A stretch of 64,000 bases of DNA from a virus. The stretch's first letter is position 1; each line of letters starts with the position of its first letter. Positions 4,847 to 25,576 of the stretch are shown in pieces. Below the pieces are notes generated by a model that was not told where the DNA came from, did not search any database, and saw only the letters and a program-made list of their open reading frames with translations. The stretch is from positions 62,001 to 126,000 of the IMG/VR virus record IMGVR_UViG_3300031951_000024. One strand, given 5' to 3'. The position numbers were made by a program, and so were the translations under genes.

Positions 4847-5617
4847 ATGATATTAGTTGAAAACTTTAAAAAAAATCAAATTGTGGATTTAGAAATTGAC
4901 TATTTTTTAGACCGAATTAAAAATAAAGACTTTTTTTCGTATTCACGATTTAATGATGGTGAATTAATATGCGCCATTAAAAATTTTACAGAAGTTGGGT
5001 CAACACACAATTGTGATAAACACGAGTATTTCCCAGATTTAGGGTTAGATTTAATACAATCTTTAAATAACGCCGATAATAAAAATTATTTCATACAATA
5101 CTTATCGGCATTTATAAACAACTCAAAATATATTGAGTACACTGAAACGTTATTAAAAAATAACAAATTAAATGGTCAATACGTTAGTAGTGATTTTCTA
5201 CAAATTATGTTAAGGTACAAACCTGAAGAGTTTAAAAAGTTTATTGATATTTTAAATCAAAATCAAATTATGATTGTTGGTCCAGAATATTTAAATAAGT
5301 TTAAATTATTAAATATTACCGATTTTATTCAGGTACCAACTAAAAATTGTTATTTACACAAAGATAGAATTCTGCATGAGATAAGAAATAAATTAAAAGA
5401 AAATCAAATAGTGTTATTTTCATCTTCTATGGCAACAAATTCATTTATTAATGTGCTGTTTGCTGAATATGGTAATACTAATTTTTTTATTGACGCCGGA
5501 TCAATATGGGATATTTTTTTCTATAAAACAAATCCAGAAATAAAACAGAGAAGTGTTAATTTTGATAAAATAACACAATTTAGTAACTGGTATAAAGATT
5601 TTTTTATTGATAATTAA
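4847..5617 (+). CDS. GT-D-fold-type glycosyltransferase
   Basis: 256 residues from the chosen ATG at 4847. The upstream in-frame ATG at 4802 would place the late-type promoter motif inside the gene. The region SYSRFNDGELICAI near residue 30 matches the R-F-x-D-G-E signature of the GT-D glycosyltransferase domain (formerly DUF1792). The rest is AT-rich and Asn/Lys-rich like its neighbours. It is the first of three forward glycosyltransferase genes spaced by 2 bases or less. These enzymes usually extend protein-linked or surface glycans; the phage substrate is not known. Confidence 0.6.
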   Translation: MILVENFKKNQIVDLEIDYFLDRIKNKDFFSYSRFNDGELICAIKNFTEVGSTHNCDKHEYFPDLGLDLIQSLNNADNKNYFIQYLSAFINNSKYIEYTETLLKNNKLNGQYVSSDFLQIMLRYKPEEFKKFIDILNQNQIMIVGPEYLNKFKLLNITDFIQVPTKNCYLHKDRILHEIRNKLKENQIVLFSSSMATNSFINVLFAEYGNTNFFIDAGSIWDIFFYKTNPEIKQRSVNFDKITQFSNWYKDFFIDN

Positions 5618-9000: not shown

Positions 9001-9013
9001 ATCGGCCTTAAAA

Positions 9014-9097
9014 GGAGAGGTAATCACAGCGGCCTGTGATCCCGTCTTGAAAACGGTGAGTACCGAAAGGTATGGGGGTCGGCACCTCATCTCTCCT
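9014..9097 (+). tRNA. tRNA-Ser(UGA) with unusual D-arm
   Basis: Acceptor GGAGAGG/TCTCTCC, anticodon loop CTTGAAA (UGA) and a variable arm TACC-GAAA-GGTA typical of Ser. The D-arm region forms a 7-bp hairpin ATCACAG/CTGTGAT with a CGGC loop instead of the normal short stem and GG-containing loop. The T-loop is GTCGGCA (G54/G58). Confidence 0.8.
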
Positions 9098-9107
9098 CTT
9101 TTATAAT

Positions 9108-9648: not shown

Positions 9649-9654
9649 CAATAG

Positions 9655-9781
9655 GTTGATTAGGGAAGTACATAACGTTAACGTGTCAGTAGTTCGTAGT
9701 TATGTGGGAGTTTTAACTGTCATAGTAAAGCTAATCGTAAAATCAGATGTCCACAGAACCATCTTCTGATTTCCTAAACTT
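9655..9781 (+). ncRNA. Structured spacer RNA between tRNA-Val and tRNA-Tyr
   Basis: No open frame. GATTAG (9658) pairs with CTAATC (9731) and encloses a 7-bp ACATAAC/GTTATGT helix. A second hairpin starts at 9742 (ATCAGATG). It does not fold as a tRNA by eye. Class unknown. Confidence 0.4.
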
Positions 9782-10023: not shown

Positions 10024-10081
10024 CAAAAGAGGAATAACTTGCGTAGGTGCCTCAAGGAACTGCAGTCCTACTACGCTCTAT

Positions 10082-10170
10082 GGAAAGTAATCCCTGAAGG
10101 CGACGGGGCATGCCTGCTAAGCATTGCGATCGGTGAGAATCCGATTGTGGATCGTTACCACTGCTTTCCT
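10082..10170 (+). tRNA. tRNA-Ser(GCU), divergent
   Basis: Acceptor GGAAAGT/GCTTTCC (7 bp), anticodon loop CTGCTAA (GCU), and a long variable arm ATCGG/CCGAT as in Ser tRNAs. T-loop ATCGTTA on stem GTGG/CCAC. The D-arm (CCC..GGG) is irregular, so standard scanners could miss this gene. The spacer just upstream (10040-10077) holds a GCGTAG/CTACGC hairpin. Confidence 0.65.
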
Positions 10171-10179
10171 CAACATATG

Positions 10180-10252: not shown

Positions 10253-10447
10253 CAAATAGTTCACAACGGACAAGGCTTAGGCAAGTGAGTTGAGAATGAG
10301 TCGTAGGAGATATTACCAAAATGATTAAGTTCAATAAAGGAATCGTTTGGACTACAAAAAGTTTGATACAAGAGATTGGTGGGTGGCGAGTGGTTGACCA
10401 GAACTATTTAAATATCCGATGTCGGTCCCGAGCTAGGTCGGGCATTT

Positions 10448-12490: not shown

Positions 12491-12522
12491 TTTGGTAGAT
12501 TAAAAAATTTGACATATCTTTG
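12491..12522 (+). promoter_or_regulatory. Host-type promoter for structured RNAs
   Basis: TTTG (12491) - N20 - TATCTTTG (12515-12522). The flanking bases (AAAAAGATTTGG) are shared with the promoter at 14218, so the two RNA operons have duplicated promoter regions. Confidence 0.8.
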
Positions 12523-12533
12523 TAAGACAAACG

Positions 12534-12572
12534 ATGGGGGTAGGAAGTTTAGAAATTGGTATCCTACCCCCA
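12534..12572 (+). promoter_or_regulatory. Leader hairpin upstream of boxA
   Basis: GGGGGTAGGA pairs perfectly with TCCTACCCCC in the first 50 nt of the transcript. A smaller hairpin occupies the same place in the 20150 transcript. Confidence 0.7.
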
Positions 12573-12587
12573 GATAAAGGGAAAAAA

Positions 12588-12599
12588 GTTCTTTGAAAA
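12588..12599 (+). promoter_or_regulatory. boxA-like element
   Basis: GTTCTTTGAAAA, just before a structured RNA that lacks any open frame. Confidence 0.6.
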
Positions 12600-12600
12600 C

Positions 12601-12741
12601 ATTGTGATTTATTACACTAAAGCGAGGGGGAAAACTTTAGGTAGTATGTGTTGAACTAGCTTGCTCCGACTAGCACGGTCTAATCCGCCGTGAAGCATTT
12701 AATAATGGAGTAATGATGCTGATACATATAAATCACAACTT
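12601..12741 (+). ncRNA. Structured RNA A (multibranched, unknown class)
   Basis: An 11-bp closing stem pairs TTGTGATTTAT with ATAAATCACAA. Inside are hairpins CTAAAG/CTTTAG, CACGG/CCGTG and AGCAT/ATGCT. It is clearly less AT-rich than neighbouring genes and has no coding frame. Promoter, leader hairpin and boxA lie upstream. I do not recognise the family. Confidence 0.65.
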
Positions 12742-12746
12742 TTTAA

Positions 12747-12845
12747 AATATTGTGGTGGTAAGAAAAGGTGAACTCGTTAAGTTCATAGACCTGTTGACA
12801 AAAGATGGTGAAACGAGTGTGGTTGTCAACTACTGTATCACAGAT
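12747..12845 (+). ncRNA. Structured RNA B
   Basis: Between RNA A and tRNA-Met. Hairpins TGAACT/AGTTCA and GTTGACA/TGTCAAC (7 bp). No coding frame. Probably processed from the same transcript. Confidence 0.45.
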
Positions 12846-12847
12846 AT

Positions 12848-12920
12848 AGCAGGCGGGAGGTAGAGGATCTCACCGGTCTCATAAGCCGGTTTAACTTGGT
12901 GCGATTCCAAGGCGTTGCTA
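12848..12920 (+). tRNA. tRNA-Met(CAU), irregular
   Basis: Anticodon loop CTCATAA (CAU) on stem CCGGT/GCCGG, T-loop TGCGATT on stem CTTGG/CCAAG. The acceptor stem pairs AGCAG-CG with CGTTGCT only if one G is bulged. The D-arm is also unusual. Confidence 0.65.
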
Positions 12921-12927
12921 CAACAAA

Positions 12928-12991
12928 AAGGGTGGATAGGTGGGAGGGCCTTTCCTAAAAGACGGCACGCTAGGCCCGTGTTCACCCTTAA
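12928..12991 (+). ncRNA. tRNA-like element without an anticodon arm
   Basis: AAGGGTGGA pairs with TTCACCCTT as an acceptor-like 9-bp stem. CACG/CGTG with a 7-nt loop CTAGGCC stands where a T-arm would be, and TAGG/CCTA where a D-arm would be. No normal anticodon stem is visible. It could be a degenerate tRNA (TTTCCTA resembles a Gly UCC loop) or a processing element. Confidence 0.3.
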
Positions 12992-12994
12992 AAT

Positions 12995-13066
12995 GGTCCA
13001 TTGGTGTAGTGGCTAACATACATCCCTGTCACGGATGTGCTCCGGGTTCAATTCCCGGATGGACCG
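12995..13066 (+). tRNA. tRNA-Asp(GUC)
   Basis: Acceptor GGTCCAT/ATGGACC, anticodon loop CTGTCAC (GUC), T-loop TTCAATT. Confidence 0.94.
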
Positions 13067-13095
13067 CTAAACAATTAAAAACTAAACAAAATGAA

Positions 13096-13317
13096 ATGTT
13101 AAAGTTTAAACTGGGGTTGTGGGGTGTTGTAGGTACCACAATGATTTACATCTACATAATGAATTTATTTTTCAGTTATGTAATCAACCGGGAGGTTGAT
13201 GAAATCCTACAAATCGGTGCTAGTTTTATAGCTTTATTCTACACCGTTTTTCAAATAAAGCTAATAGTAAAAGAAATAACAAATTTATTTAACAAAAAAG
13301 AAAAAGAAAATGATTAG
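13096..13317 (+). CDS. Small two-TM membrane protein
   Basis: 73 residues with two hydrophobic segments (GVVGTTMIYIYIMNLFF and GASFIALFYTVFQIKLIV) and a Lys/Glu-rich end. The start is the ATG at 13096; the open frame extends further upstream but overlaps tRNA-Asp. Its stop overlaps the start of the SPFH gene (ATGATTAG), so the two are translationally coupled and probably act together at the membrane. Confidence 0.65.
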   Translation: MLKFKLGLWGVVGTTMIYIYIMNLFFSYVINREVDEILQIGASFIALFYTVFQIKLIVKEITNLFNKKEKEND

Positions 13318-14212
13318 TTTGATTGTAACATTAGTGTTTTTGATTATCGCAGGGGTGATGATTGTAAAAGGTAAAATTAACGATGAGTCCTCAAGTATTC
13401 TAAAAGGAGTTGTTGTTGGTGTTGTGGGTGTATTGATTGGCGTATTCCAACCATACTCACTTGAGAGAATTGACGCCGGTCACAAAGGTATTGTGGTTAA
13501 CTTGTCCGGATCTGAAAGAGGGGTTGCTTCATATCAGTACAAAACTGGGTGGGTTGTTTATAACACCTGGTTCACGCAAGTTCTTGAGTTCCCAACCTTT
13601 CAACAACATATTGAGTATGATGATCAGGTTGTAATTACAAAGGGTGGGTTCTCAGCAACTATTAAACCATCGTTTAACTACTCGTTGAAACCGGAAGCAA
13701 TTGGTGATATGTTTGAAAACCTACGATTGGGTGTTAAAGAAATTGAACAAGGGTGGCTTAAAAACGCAATTGTTGGGGCGGTTAATGATGAAGCAAATAA
13801 ATGGGAAGTTGATAGTATTTTTTCTAATCGTCAACAGTTTGAAGCGGCAATTGTTGTTGAGTGTAATAAACGATTAACAAAGTGGTTTGATGTGTCACAA
13901 CTTAGAACAAACATTACACCACCGGAGGCGCTCCAGGAATCAATTATTGCAAAAACAAAAGCTATCCAACAAGCTGAAGCCTCCGAGCAACAAGCAATTG
14001 CTGCAATTGCAGAAGGAAAACGTAAGGTGGCTGTCGCAAGAGCCGACTCGGCAGAAACAATTATCAACGCAAAAGCGGCATCACTTGCAATTGAGTTGAA
14101 ACAACAAAAACTAACACCGATGTATATTGAGTATTTGAAGGCAAATGCTTGGGATGGTAAACTTCCAACAACAATGGCAGGCAGTTCTGGAACGTTTTTG
14201 AATATTAAATAA
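13310..14212 (+). CDS. SPFH/Band-7 (prohibitin-like) membrane protein
   Basis: 300 residues. The N-terminus has two hydrophobic segments (LIVTLVFLIIAGVMIV and GVVVGVVGVLIGVF), then the Band-7 entry R-I-D-A-G-H-K-G-I-V near residue 52 and an SPFH body to about 190. A long Ala/Glu/Lys-rich coiled coil follows (AIQQAEASEQQAIAAIAEG). This is the classical prohibitin layout; such proteins form large rings in the membrane. Phage prohibitin-like proteins are known in T4-like phages, with roles in lysis inhibition or membrane protection proposed but unsettled. It sits among RNA genes. Confidence 0.85.
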   Translation: MISLIVTLVFLIIAGVMIVKGKINDESSSILKGVVVGVVGVLIGVFQPYSLERIDAGHKGIVVNLSGSERGVASYQYKTGWVVYNTWFTQVLEFPTFQQHIEYDDQVVITKGGFSATIKPSFNYSLKPEAIGDMFENLRLGVKEIEQGWLKNAIVGAVNDEANKWEVDSIFSNRQQFEAAIVVECNKRLTKWFDVSQLRTNITPPEALQESIIAKTKAIQQAEASEQQAIAAIAEGKRKVAVARADSAETIINAKAASLAIELKQQKLTPMYIEYLKANAWDGKLPTTMAGSSGTFLNIK

Positions 14213-14217
14213 AAAGA

Positions 14218-14249
14218 TTTGGAGGATTGAAAAATTCTCCTTATCTTTG
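14218..14249 (+). promoter_or_regulatory. Host-type promoter for structured RNA C
   Basis: TTTG (14218) - N20 - TATCTTTG (14242-14249). It shares its upstream AAAAAGATTTGG with the promoter at 12491. Confidence 0.8.
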
Positions 14250-14269: not shown

Positions 14270-14280
14270 GTTCTTTGAAA
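14270..14280 (+). promoter_or_regulatory. boxA-like element
   Basis: GTTCTTTGAAA, about 16 nt after the predicted transcription start. Confidence 0.6.
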
Positions 14281-14288
14281 TAATAGAT

Positions 14289-14512
14289 TGGTAAGATAGC
14301 AGATAGACCTACGTCAGCAGACTCTCATAGAGAATCAGAAATGATGAGTAAAACGGAGCCCCTATCAGACTAACGTGTTGAGGAGGTACTCAAAGTTTTC
14401 CGGGAGGTTAACTGGTAATAAACGATGGTTTGGGTAGAACGGATGTTAAAGGCGAGGTGTGGGTAGTAAGGATGGGGTAACCCACGAATAAGTAAATCTT
14501 AAGGTCTTACCA
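14289..14512 (+). ncRNA. Structured RNA C (~224 nt, unknown class)
   Basis: TGGTAAGA (14289) pairs with TCTTACCA (14505-14512). Inside are CTCT/AGAG and GTGGGT/ACCCAC hairpins and much purine-rich single strand. No coding frame. It follows its own promoter and boxA. Confidence 0.6.
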
Positions 14513-14525
14513 TTTTTTAAAAATC

Positions 14526-14607
14526 TAAATCACGGGTGGCTCCCTTAATAGTTAAGGCTGACCTTAAGCATCTGACGCATGTCTATACAGGGGGCGAAAG
14601 TGATTTA
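14526..14607 (+). ncRNA. Structured RNA D (~82 nt)
   Basis: TAAATCAC pairs with GTGATTTA at the ends. The hairpins CCTTAA/TTAAGG and GGG/CCC lie inside. The closing sequence resembles that of RNA A (GTGATTTA/TAAATCAC), so the two may be related or may share a processing signal. Confidence 0.5.
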
Positions 14608-14672
14608 AAATATTGTAATGAACAACGCGACCGCAGGAGTTGTACCTTTATGGTTTTGTAATGTGGTTTTAT

Positions 14673-15081: not shown

Positions 15082-15343
15082 CACGTGGTAGGGTTCATCA
15101 CCCCCTAGTGTGCCCCACATAATGAGAAACGGAGTGATATCCGTAGGGGAACGTACATTGTCGTATAGGGAGAACGACTGGGAAAGTAAGTTGTATTAGA
15201 TACAGTGGAAACGCACATCTCAACAGAGGTGGACTGAAAGTTTGCCCGACCTGGGTTGAGGACGAAAGAAACTATTTCTAACCTACCTTTTTGGTGGGGA
15301 CAACCGGAGCACCTGTAAGCTGAATAAATTAGGGTGTTAACAA
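15082..15343 (+). ncRNA. Structured spacer between two Leu-type tRNAs
   Basis: 262 nt without a convincing frame and less AT-rich than the coding regions. Hairpins ACGGA/TCCGT and TGTAT/ATACA are visible. Class unknown; it may be part of the same processed transcript. Confidence 0.4.
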
Positions 15344-15443
15344 AGGCAAGTGGCGAAATCGGCAGACGCTAAGGTAGATCTAACTAAGATTGTACCGAGA
15401 CAATGTAAAAGTTGTCGTATAGGTTCAAATCCTTTCTTGTCTA
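15344..15443 (+). tRNA. Leu-type tRNA with expanded anticodon arm
   Basis: Acceptor AGGCAAG/CTTGTCT, D-arm GCG..CGC, variable arm GACAA/TTGTC, T-loop TTCAAAT. The anticodon arm is an extended helix (GGTA-GATC with GATT-G-TACC) and its loop TAACTAA has A, not T, at position 33. Decoding identity is unclear. Confidence 0.55.
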
Positions 15444-15459
15444 CAAATACAATTAAAAG

Positions 15460-15531
15460 ATGAATATGTTATTGTTTGTATCATTTGTTTTGTTTATACT
15501 TTTAATAGGTAGAAAAAAAAGAAAATATTAA
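15460..15531 (+). CDS. Possible 23-residue membrane mini-protein
   Basis: A single hydrophobic segment (LLFVSFVLFILLI) ends in GRKKRKY. It starts just after the Leu-type tRNA. Its 3' end lies in the stem of the next structured RNA. Weak support. Confidence 0.35.
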   Translation: MNMLLFVSFVLFILLIGRKKRKY

Positions 15532-15615
15532 CTTCAGTACCCATACAGCGGTGAGACGGGCTAAGTAAGATACGATTCCTCGGGGCTGGGAGTAGAATGC
15601 TGAAGAAATATTTTC
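15521..15615 (+). ncRNA. Long-stem structured RNA (~95 nt)
   Basis: GAAAATATT (15521) pairs with AATATTTTC (15607), continued by CTTCAG/CTGAAG after a small internal loop: 15 bp in total enclosing a less AT-rich core. It directly precedes tRNA-Leu(UAA) and may direct processing. Confidence 0.55.
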
Positions 15616-15623
15616 TAAAATAT

Positions 15624-15703: not shown

Positions 15704-15705
15704 CT

Positions 15706-15782
15706 GTTGTGTTATTCCCTTGAGAAAGGAATTACGGTGGGATATGGTCTTGATTTGGATTTAACCTAGTATGAATCACAAC
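15706..15782 (+). ncRNA. Structured spacer RNA
   Basis: GTTGTG (15706) pairs with CACAAC (15777) and encloses an ATTCC/GGAAT hairpin. It lies between tRNA-Leu and tRNA-Met. Confidence 0.4.
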
Positions 15783-15806
15783 ACAGAGGACTTCTCATCC
15801 TCAACC

Positions 15807-20146: not shown

Positions 20147-20174
20147 TAAAACAAATTCGGAAACGTCCGAAATC

Positions 20175-20186: not shown

Positions 20187-21098
20187 ATTAGAATATCCAT
20201 TCAGAATGTTTGATGATGAAATCCTTGCGGTTGATTCTGAGTAACAAACTGATAAAGATATTTGGCCGTATATAGTCAATAAATAAACTGGGAAACCAGG
20301 ATAAAGTGGGTCAGTAGTGTAACTGATCTGCGGTTTGGGTAACCGAACTTAAGTATACAAGCGGGATACCGTTTAACCTTTAGTACCGAGGGCAACGCTG
20401 TAGGGAAAGTGGTTAGATGATTGGGCGATGTGGGTCGTCCGGTTGAGGTGGGAACACCAATAGGAATAACTCGTAGGGATATTGCAAAAAATAAGATTAT
20501 CCAATTTTATTATTGCGTGTCCCAATATCAGAGGATACTTAAAACCGAAAGGTATGATAACAAACAGGTGGTGCTGACATTATCCTTGACCCTTGCCTAC
20601 CAAGGCATAAGTCACGAAGTAATCTTAAAATATTGAGATGGGGACATTTCAGAGAGTAGTTGAGTATCGGCTCGTTCAAAAGATGAGCTGGCTCTGGTGG
20701 CGGACCACTACTTTCATAATCCACGACACAAAAACCTAAGAAAAAATTATGAAATTAATTTAATCAGAAAGGAAAAGTGTCCGTCAGGTTTGGATGAAAG
20801 GTGACTACATAGTAATGAGCCGTTCATTGCACACAAGGATCCCAAGTCTAAGTGTAATTATCCGAAAAACCTTTAGTCCCGCAAGGACGAACTGGGGAGG
20901 CATCCTCGGAAAGAGTCAAGTAAGGTGAGAGTAGTCCAAATCTCAAGGAGTGGTTCCCCTAAGTGACCGTCACTGAGAAATACTTCTCAAAAGGAAGTGG
21001 ATAGGAGTAGAATAAATAATGACTCTAAAGGTTCTCAATAAAACGTGTAATCTCAACGTTCTTTTTAGGTTTAATCTTATAAGACAAAAAAAATTAGT

Positions 21099-23545: not shown

Positions 23546-25576
23546 CTTTCTACCCCTTTTAGGTTTATTCTCAATAAGAACATCAATCTTAATTTCCTTA
23601 TCTACAACTGTCAATTTATAATCAACATCTTCTAGAACTTCATTTAGTAATATTTTCTCAGAGATAAGGTCTTCAATTTTATCCTGGATTGCCCTTTTAA
23701 TTGGTCTTGCACCAAATTGTTCATCAAACCCAACCTCAGATATCAATTCAACAACTGACTCATCGTATGTAATTTTATATTTCATTGACTCAATTCTGTT
23801 AACTAACTTCTCAATTTCAATTTTAACAATCCGGTCAACGTGCTCTTTTTTAAGCGAGTTAAAGACAATAACGTCATCAATTCTATTTAGGAATTCTGGA
23901 GCGAAGAACTTACTTAATTCTTTTTTGAGGATATCTCTTTTTTCTTCTTCTCTTACTGCTTCACTACTATTTGATTTAAACCCAACTCCAGTTCCAAAAT
24001 CCTGTAATTTTCTAACACCAATATTTGATGTCATAATAATTAAACAATTTTTGAAGTTAATTTTTCTTCCAAGTCCGTCGGTCATATGCCCGTCATCAAG
24101 CATTTGAAGAAGTGTTGAGAAGATATCTTTATTTGCCTTTTCAATCTCATCAAATAAGATAACAGAGTATGGTTTATTTTTAACCTGTTCTGTAAGCTGT
24201 CCACCCTCTTCGTGACCAACATATCCTGGAGGAGAACCGATAAGCCTTGATATAGTATGTTTTTCCTGATATTCAGACATATCAACACGAATCAAACTAT
24301 CTTCACTACCAAAAATTTCTTTTGCTAGTTTCTTTGCAAGATATGTTTTACCAACACCGGTTGACCCAAGGAAGATAAATGAACCAATTGGTCTATTTGG
24401 GTCCTTAATTCCAATTCTATTTCTTCTAATGGATTTTGATATTTTTGTTACCGCTTCAGCCTGACCAATTACATAGCTATTTAGTGCGTTCTCTAAATTA
24501 ACAAGAGAGTTTTTCTCGTCAACATTAATTTTGCTTACCGGGATTTTAGTCATTTTAGAAACAACCTCATAAATTAAATCTTCCGGAATTACTCTTTTAC
24601 TATTTCTAAGTTCTTCCTCAAATTTTAATCTTTCGGCATCAAGTGATGACATTACTGATTTTTCCCGGTCCCTTAACTCAGCAGCCATTTCGTATTTCTG
24701 TTTTTTTATAACGTCAGACTTCTCCTTTTTAATTTCAAGAAGTTCTTGTTTTAGATTTTCAATACTTTCAGGAAGTTTAATATCAATTTGCATTCTTGAC
24801 CCAACCTCATCAATAATATCAAAAGCTTTATCCGGAAACTCACGATCTGTAATATATCTATCGGCAAGTTCTACACATAAAAGAAGTGATTCGTCTGAAT
24901 ATGTTACCTTGTGATGTTCTTCATACTTTTCTTTACTATTTTTTAAAATTTGAAAAGTTTCAGCCTTTGTTGATGGTTCTACAATTACTTTCTGGAATCT
25001 TCTCTCAAGAGCTCCATCCTTCTCAAAATGCTTTCTATATTCATCAAGGGTTGTAGCACCAATACATTGGATTTCACCCCTAGAAAGGGCCGGTTTAAAG
25101 ATGTTTGAGGCATCAAGTGAACCAGAACTATTACCAGCACCAACCATTGTATGAATCTCATCAATAAAAAGAATAATGTTTGGATTACTTTGAAGTTCCT
25201 CAATTATTACTTTCATTCTTTCCTCAAATTGTCCACGATATTTTGTACCGGCAACAATTGAATTCATCTCAAGGGAAACAATTCTTTTCTCTGAAAGATT
25301 TTTAGGACATTCACCACTATGAATCATCATTGCCAACCCTTCTACAATTGCTGTTTTACCACAACCTGGTTCACCGATAATAATAGGGTTGTTTTTCTTT
25401 CTTCTAGATAAAATTTGTGCAATTCTAATAATTTCATCTTCTCTACCTATTACAGGGTCTAATTTACCTTCTTGAGCTAACTTATTTAAGTCTTTACTAA
25501 AGTTGTCTAGAACCGGAGTTCCACTATCACTTTTTTTCTTGTTCTTGTCGTTGTCATCAATGAATTCTATTGCCAT
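23531..25576 (-). CDS. ClpC-like AAA+ unfoldase lacking the N-domain
   Basis: 681 residues with two AAA+ modules. First: Walker A GEPGCGKT (68-75), Walker [10 protein letters not shown]. Second: Walker A GSTGVGKT, Walker [11 protein letters not shown], then the C-terminal D2-small domain ([11 protein letters not shown]). The middle domain is short and has a UVR-type motif ([15 protein letters not shown]), a ClpC hallmark. A GVGF in the second module fits the (I/L/V)GF loop that docks on ClpP, so it could use host ClpP; no ClpP gene is in the window. The ~130-residue Clp N-domain is missing, so substrates must come through another adaptor. A divergent UVR-motif gene is the obvious partner. Confidence 0.9.

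Follow-up and report, generated by a model that had tools for sequence, protein, structure and literature searches.

The window analysed here is a stretch of 64,000 nt that comprises bases 62001-126000 of the 154,296-base uncultivated virus record IMGVR_UViG_3300031951_000024. ARAGORN finds 17 tRNAs in this window, which also contains one GOLLD RNA (20652-21059) and one tmRNA; the phage tmRNA (21212-21602, - strand) adjoins GOLLD on the opposite strand. Promoters in the window have the form TTTG...TANNTTTG, which we take to be a Bacteroidota-type motif and which was also seen upstream of Bacteroidota 16S genes, and they point to a Bacteroidota host. The Band-7 protein encoded next to the RNA unit described below (13310-14212) has its nearest isolate-phage match, at 48% identity, in Flavobacterium phage FL-1.

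The RNA unit lies on the + strand. It starts with a Bacteroidota-type promoter at 12491-12522 (-33 element TTTG at 12491-12494, N20 spacer, and -7 element TATCTTTG at 12515-12522), of which there is a 49-nt copy at G000:C1:76210-76258 and a weaker copy at 24070-24116. A leader hairpin follows at 12536-12571, and its 10-bp stem (12536-12545/12562-12571) occupies a boxB-like position upstream of a boxA-like element, GTTCTTTGAAAAC, at 12588-12600. Behind these elements lie two putative structured RNAs, RNA A (12602-12738, about 137 nt) and RNA B (12752-12842, about 91 nt). The linker TTTAAAATATTG (12742-12753) marks the boundary between them, and a second copy of this linker is found at 14604 between modules F and G. 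RNA B is followed by a tRNA-like gene with a CAT anticodon (12848-12921), small RNA module C (12928-12990), and tRNA-Asp (GTC) (12995-13067), which ends the RNA part of the unit. The CAT-anticodon gene was missed by ARAGORN and scores 19.0 bits against the Rfam tRNA model (gathering score 29); similar sequence is present in 11 of the compared loci. Module C, whose closing stem is GGGTG-A/T-TCACCC, was found at 47 loci (23 distinct), and this stem changes to GGATGAA/TTCATCC in the related phage L010.

The interval 12491-12845 contains no ORF of at least 80 aa, and the unit is non-coding by every test made. The original prediction had described this interval as frame-less, with a promoter, a 10-bp leader hairpin, a boxA, an 11-bp closing stem, and two RNAs whose ends were to be mapped near 12600 and 12745. 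Each of these elements was recovered, and the conserved boundaries of the two putative RNAs fit the predicted ends. The unit extends beyond the interval and belongs to a larger island of RNAs whose members can be exchanged.

Promoter, leader hairpin and boxA-like element

Among 2000 dinucleotide shuffles of 12491-12845, 1.15% held a perfect 11-bp inverted repeat within 200 nt and 5.4% held a 10-bp repeat; the real sequence contains both the 11-bp closing stem of RNA A and the 10-bp leader stem. In 37 segments running from the -7 element to boxA, the leader hairpin is formed by 14 different stems with compensatory changes, such as GGGGGTAGGA/TCCTACCCCC, GGGGGTGAGA/TCTCACCCCC, and GGAGGTAGGG/CCCTACCTCC.

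The boxA pattern has five matches on the + strand of the window and none on the - strand. The comparison took in the regions upstream of six Bacteroidota 16S genes from plasmid records. A Bacteroidota-type promoter of the same form precedes five of the six, and the strict boxA TTC[TA]TTGA occurs in three of the six leaders (Segatella, Aureibacter, and Persicobacter); the other three leaders have near forms of boxA, as judged by eye. In seven unrelated genomes, the boxA word gave 18 matches, and none of the 12 loci inspected had a 16S or 23S start downstream. The identification of boxA therefore rests on the Bacteroidota comparison, and its putative assignment before RNA A rests on consensus and position. 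We infer that this element may bind NusB/S10. As the original prediction had stated for the giant RNA, the order of the elements is the same at GOLLD in the window, where a promoter, a hairpin (TTCGGA/TCCGAA, 20156-20171), and a boxA (20175) precede the structured RNA. The unit at 14218 has a promoter and boxA without a hairpin.

This arrangement resembles the leaders of rRNA operons (boxB, boxA, and boxC; rrnTAC) in its succession of promoter, hairpin, boxA, and long structured untranslated RNA, and it shares both its promoter form and its boxA word with the regions upstream of Bacteroidota 16S genes. However, the unit encodes no rRNA, its products being RNA A, RNA B, tRNAs, and small RNAs; a boxC was not identified, and antitermination is putative. 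It also differs from a lambda-type nut site, where boxA lies upstream of the boxB hairpin and an N-like protein is involved, whereas here the hairpin lies upstream of boxA. Stringer et al. are said to have described, in 2020, boxA leaders of CRISPR arrays, where boxA stands in front of a long non-coding transcript other than rRNA. The present unit is similar in that respect, but it is a phage tRNA and small-RNA unit and a covarying hairpin precedes its boxA. GOLLD (RF02032) and ROOL are likewise structured RNAs of phage tRNA islands, and the GOLLD of the window has the same kind of leader. Compared with GOLLD, the two RNAs of this unit are small and share neither sequence nor fold with it; the RF02032 covariance model had no match in 12491-12845 and matched at 20652-21059 only. 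One report (PMC12286853) describes GOLLD and ROOL as phage RNAs of unknown function that are often found near tRNA islands and form RNA nanocages.

Folds and distribution of RNA A and RNA B

RNA A is closed by a perfect 11-bp stem (TTGTGATTTAT with ATAAATCACAA, 12602-12612/12728-12738), of which 12602-12611/12729-12738 are counted as helix P1; the stem encloses helices P2 (12617-12622/12635-12640), P3 (12645-12651/12722-12728), P4 (12656-12659/12670-12673), P5 (12674-12678/12688-12692), and P6 (12694-12698/12716-12720). Four distinct sequences are available: those of the window, L099, L188 (identical to L191), and L179 (identical to L190). Across these sequences, 97.3% of the cells in P1, P2, P3, and P6 are paired, and 10 of 28 pairs have double-sided changes, with compensatory changes in all four of these formally counted helices. 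In the controls for double changes, the count was 0 of 500 for shuffles, and slid structures gave 0-1 such pairs. P4 and P5 were compared by hand; P4 changes in a compensating manner from CTAG/CTAG to GATG/CATC, and P5 also varies compensatingly. A pseudoknot could form between 12661-12667 and 12707-12713 (loop GCTCC opposite GGAGT), whose strands hardly vary, too little for a test of pairing. All six helices appear in the minimum-energy fold of the L179 sequence alone, and the folding energy of RNA A as a single sequence gives a z of -1.34.

RNA B was aligned from 56 of its 68 distinct sequences, with 12 close relatives excluded by hand. Helix P2 (12794-12801/12823-12830) covaries strongly, with 98.4% of cells paired and double-sided changes in six of nine pairs. 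P2 and the H-type pseudoknot (12774-12778/12813-12817) together have 99.0% of cells paired, compared to 29.5-42.3% when the partners are slid. The first RNA B pattern required both pseudoknot strands, and invariance there was not counted; a second pattern that omitted the strands served as the test. This second set contains 47 distinct sequences, of which 43 have CTCGT/ACGAG, two have CTTGT/ACAAG, one has CTTGT/ACGAG with a G-U wobble, and one is cut by the contig end. The compensatory change from CUCGU/ACGAG to CUUGU/ACAAG, with its wobble intermediate, establishes the pseudoknot. P1 (12752-12757/12837-12842) is a weaker helix: 75.1% of cells are paired, double changes occur in four of six pairs, and at least six contiguous pairs form in 65 of the 68 sequences, where about 10% of shuffles on average score as well. 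The unpaired core of RNA B is strongly conserved.

The internal hairpins given by folding were borne out only in part for RNA B, where a GAAC/GTTC hairpin seen in the minimum-energy fold is not conserved and the true core consists of one hairpin and the pseudoknot. We rejected single-sequence folding as evidence, given the weak z-scores (-0.21 for RNA B) and this unconserved minimum-energy hairpin. Because single-sequence folding energies are unremarkable, the case for both RNAs rests on comparison. In relatives the folds persist although the sequence varies, which implies that the shapes matter.

An RNA A model found six places in a sample of 86 loci (E 1e-27 to 1e-32), all of them model sequences or identical copies. 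A looser RNA A pattern returned 13 stretches, among which L217-L221 were dropped as other sequence without the context of RNA A. RNA A is absent from most relatives. RNA B was found in 105 viral stretches of IMG/VR by pattern, and 116 of 119 pattern places belong to its family, all with the same 44-nt core length. The remaining three (L101, L152, and L165) have other core lengths and no match to the RNA B model, and were set aside as chance. With one place left out as too short, the 116 places yield 68 distinct sequences of 110 nt. In 33 larger virus records, picked mostly for size and two of them for RNA A, the RNA B model found a single full copy in 31, while one further record has a copy truncated at the contig end and another has no copy; GOLLD is also present in 26 of these 33 records. 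Contig L153 has two RNA B copies. From these matches, RNA B is a widespread family of predicted RNA in uncultivated phage contigs. In L004/L189 (IMGVR_UViG_3300008261_001363), which is otherwise nearly identical to the window, 62 nt inside RNA B are missing, by natural deletion or assembly error; unless the latter applies, RNA B may be dispensable.

Neither RNA has a match in Rfam 15 at or above gathering score, and down to E 5 the only match is a minus-strand one to mir-753 that overlaps RNA A and lies far below gathering. RNA B gave no BLAST match to GenBank phages. Its pattern returned 15 stretches from 84,980 prokaryote genomes, but all of them lack the 44-nt core and the model recognises none. 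A literature search aimed only partly at such RNAs found no paper that describes RNA A or RNA B. At the sensitivities used, both appear to be previously unlisted folded RNAs.

These comparisons bear on whether the stems might have arisen by chance, either in a decayed spacer between genes or in a coding region that escaped recognition. The unexceptional single-sequence folding energies would fit such an origin, but compensatory changes in the leader hairpin, RNA A, and RNA B already refute it, and the exact 44-nt core in all but three places and the lack of an ORF of at least 80 aa are also against it; we regard it as hardly credible. The view of the original prediction that the interval is a non-coding operon and not a decayed spacer is instead supported by this covariation, which the prediction had proposed as its check, and by the same grammar of elements before GOLLD and Bacteroidota 16S genes.

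The slot before RNA B and the possible roles of RNA A and RNA B

In 79 distinct upstream contexts, RNA B directly follows the leader and boxA in 38 and a leader without boxA in one, and stands directly at a promoter in 20, 13 of which lack boxA. Another RNA module precedes it in 16 contexts (A' in eight, F in four, A in two, A2 in one, and A2 plus A' in one). The closing stem of A' is ACAAGG/CCTTGT or ATAAGG/CCTTAT. A promoter call is absent in the last four contexts, which include L133, where a tRNA lies before RNA B. Since leader and boxA, promoter, module, and tRNA contexts all occur, RNA B is not tied to one leader. The original prediction had named unrelated, unstructured sequence in homologous phages as a finding that would speak against it. 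No such replacement was found for RNA B, and for RNA A it takes a special form, in that 14 of the 79 contexts hold a different module. On this comparison, boxA and RNA B flank a slot in which four putative RNA modules are exchanged, with RNA A as one of several interchangeable modules and RNA B as the constant one.

Exchange of four different RNA modules in one slot would also be expected of decoys that serve counter-defence or host takeover, such as mimics that occupy a host toxin, nuclease, or RNA-binding protein, with exchange tracking host defences. Phages are known to make RNA mimics directed at a type III toxin-antitoxin system (PMC3475682). However, the modules match no known RNA family, and the strong conservation of the unpaired core of RNA B would suit a fixed partner better than an arms race, so that we consider decoys quite unlikely. 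We also rejected RNA B as a ToxI-like repeat RNA, as it is present in one full copy in 31 of the 33 records and in two copies in contig L153. In type III toxin-antitoxin systems, RNAs of the ToxI kind come as a series of near-identical pseudoknot repeats beside a toxin gene.

RNA B lies within 330 nt of a promoter, our definition of promoter-proximal, in 61 of 65 distinct places, compared to 11 of 86 for modules C (2/26), I (4/25), J (5/24), K (0/5), and M (0/6) combined. Modules A (2/2), E (4/5), F (3/3), and G (5/8) are often proximal too. The put RNA of phage HK022 and the EAR element of Bacillus are folded antitermination RNAs in a promoter-proximal or leader position, and EAR contains a pseudoknot. 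RNA B is like both in being promoter-proximal and folded and shares a pseudoknot with EAR; it differs in that it has no Rfam match and is normally present in a single copy per phage record, and antitermination by RNA B is hypothetical. RNA B could be a cis-acting leader element, whose nascent fold would modify RNA polymerase or guide processing and so allow transcription of the full tRNA array, with RNA A and its replacements as passengers. Consistent with such a role, ARAGORN places a tRNA within 300 nt behind RNA B in 39 of 68 places, the unpaired core and pseudoknot are invariant, and RNA B stands at a promoter without boxA in 13 contexts. Against such a role, RNA B normally occurs once per record although a single phage contains several promoter units of this kind, the boxA also present in 38 of the 79 contexts would be redundant, the tRNA of L133 comes before RNA B, and inspection of the sequence reveals no expression platform or terminator behind RNA B. 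We consider a cis-acting role possible, if somewhat doubtful.

The reading that we prefer, to which we give even credence, is that the locus is a phage unit with an rRNA-type leader that makes stable RNAs acting in trans. In this mechanism, the Bacteroidota promoter would start the unit, and the hairpin and boxA would probably load host antitermination factors, which would let the long untranslated RNA be completed without termination by Rho. On this transcript RNA A and RNA B would come first, ahead of the tRNAs and a further small RNA. The two RNAs would most likely be excised together with the tRNAs and, once freed, may act in trans as stable molecules in the infected cell. We infer this trans role because RNA B is normally single-copy, has a conserved unpaired core, and occurs with or without the leader, and because the RNAs have closing stems. 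The promoter-proximal position of RNA B, which the distal modules do not share, would suit a cis role no less well.

The surrounding RNA island

The tRNA island to which the unit belongs holds additional conserved elements, untranslated and missing from Rfam (K, K2, M, N, C, E, F, G, H, I, and J), most of which have closing stems as judged by eye. We tentatively propose, as a rather doubtful reading, that the island of GOLLD-bearing Bacteroidota phages is a toolkit of swappable RNAs that acts on the translation or defence of the host and is not a plain tRNA store. In such a toolkit, rRNA-type units of promoter, hairpin, and boxA would direct the synthesis of about a dozen small structured RNAs that Rfam lacks and that are interspersed with the tRNAs, with RNA B near-constant and the slot before it exchangeable. 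GOLLD and ROOL have already shown that folded RNAs occur in the tRNA islands of phages. The islands described here hold further families, of which RNA B is a small and widespread one with a clear pseudoknot, in units that start like rRNA operons. Testable predictions follow on two points: the way in which phages get long untranslated RNAs transcribed in Bacteroidota, and what RNA A and RNA B bind.

Several minor observations were made in and around the island. The segment 12005-12145, kept in 73 loci, has a reading frame of 24 codons (MKNLHIISLRGLAEAEDSIYVKMV) with a terminator-like hairpin behind it. A group I intron (80 bits) lies at 5037-5224 of the related phage L010, within its tRNA region. 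K (9003-9106), K2 (9650-9781), M (10025-10179), and N (10254-10325) lie among the tRNAs, and each is present in 9-21 other loci. A second unit (14285-14672), with its promoter at 14218 and boxA at 14270, consists of the conserved modules E, F, and G and then tRNA-Glu; module F is also found upstream of RNA B in other phages, and module G follows RNA B in L179. A Leu-like tRNA-like gene with a long variable region (15345-15446) was missed by ARAGORN. Modules H (15085-15345, about 250 nt), I (15529-15622), and J (15705-15806) are untranslated and occur in 8, 41, and 34 loci, respectively.
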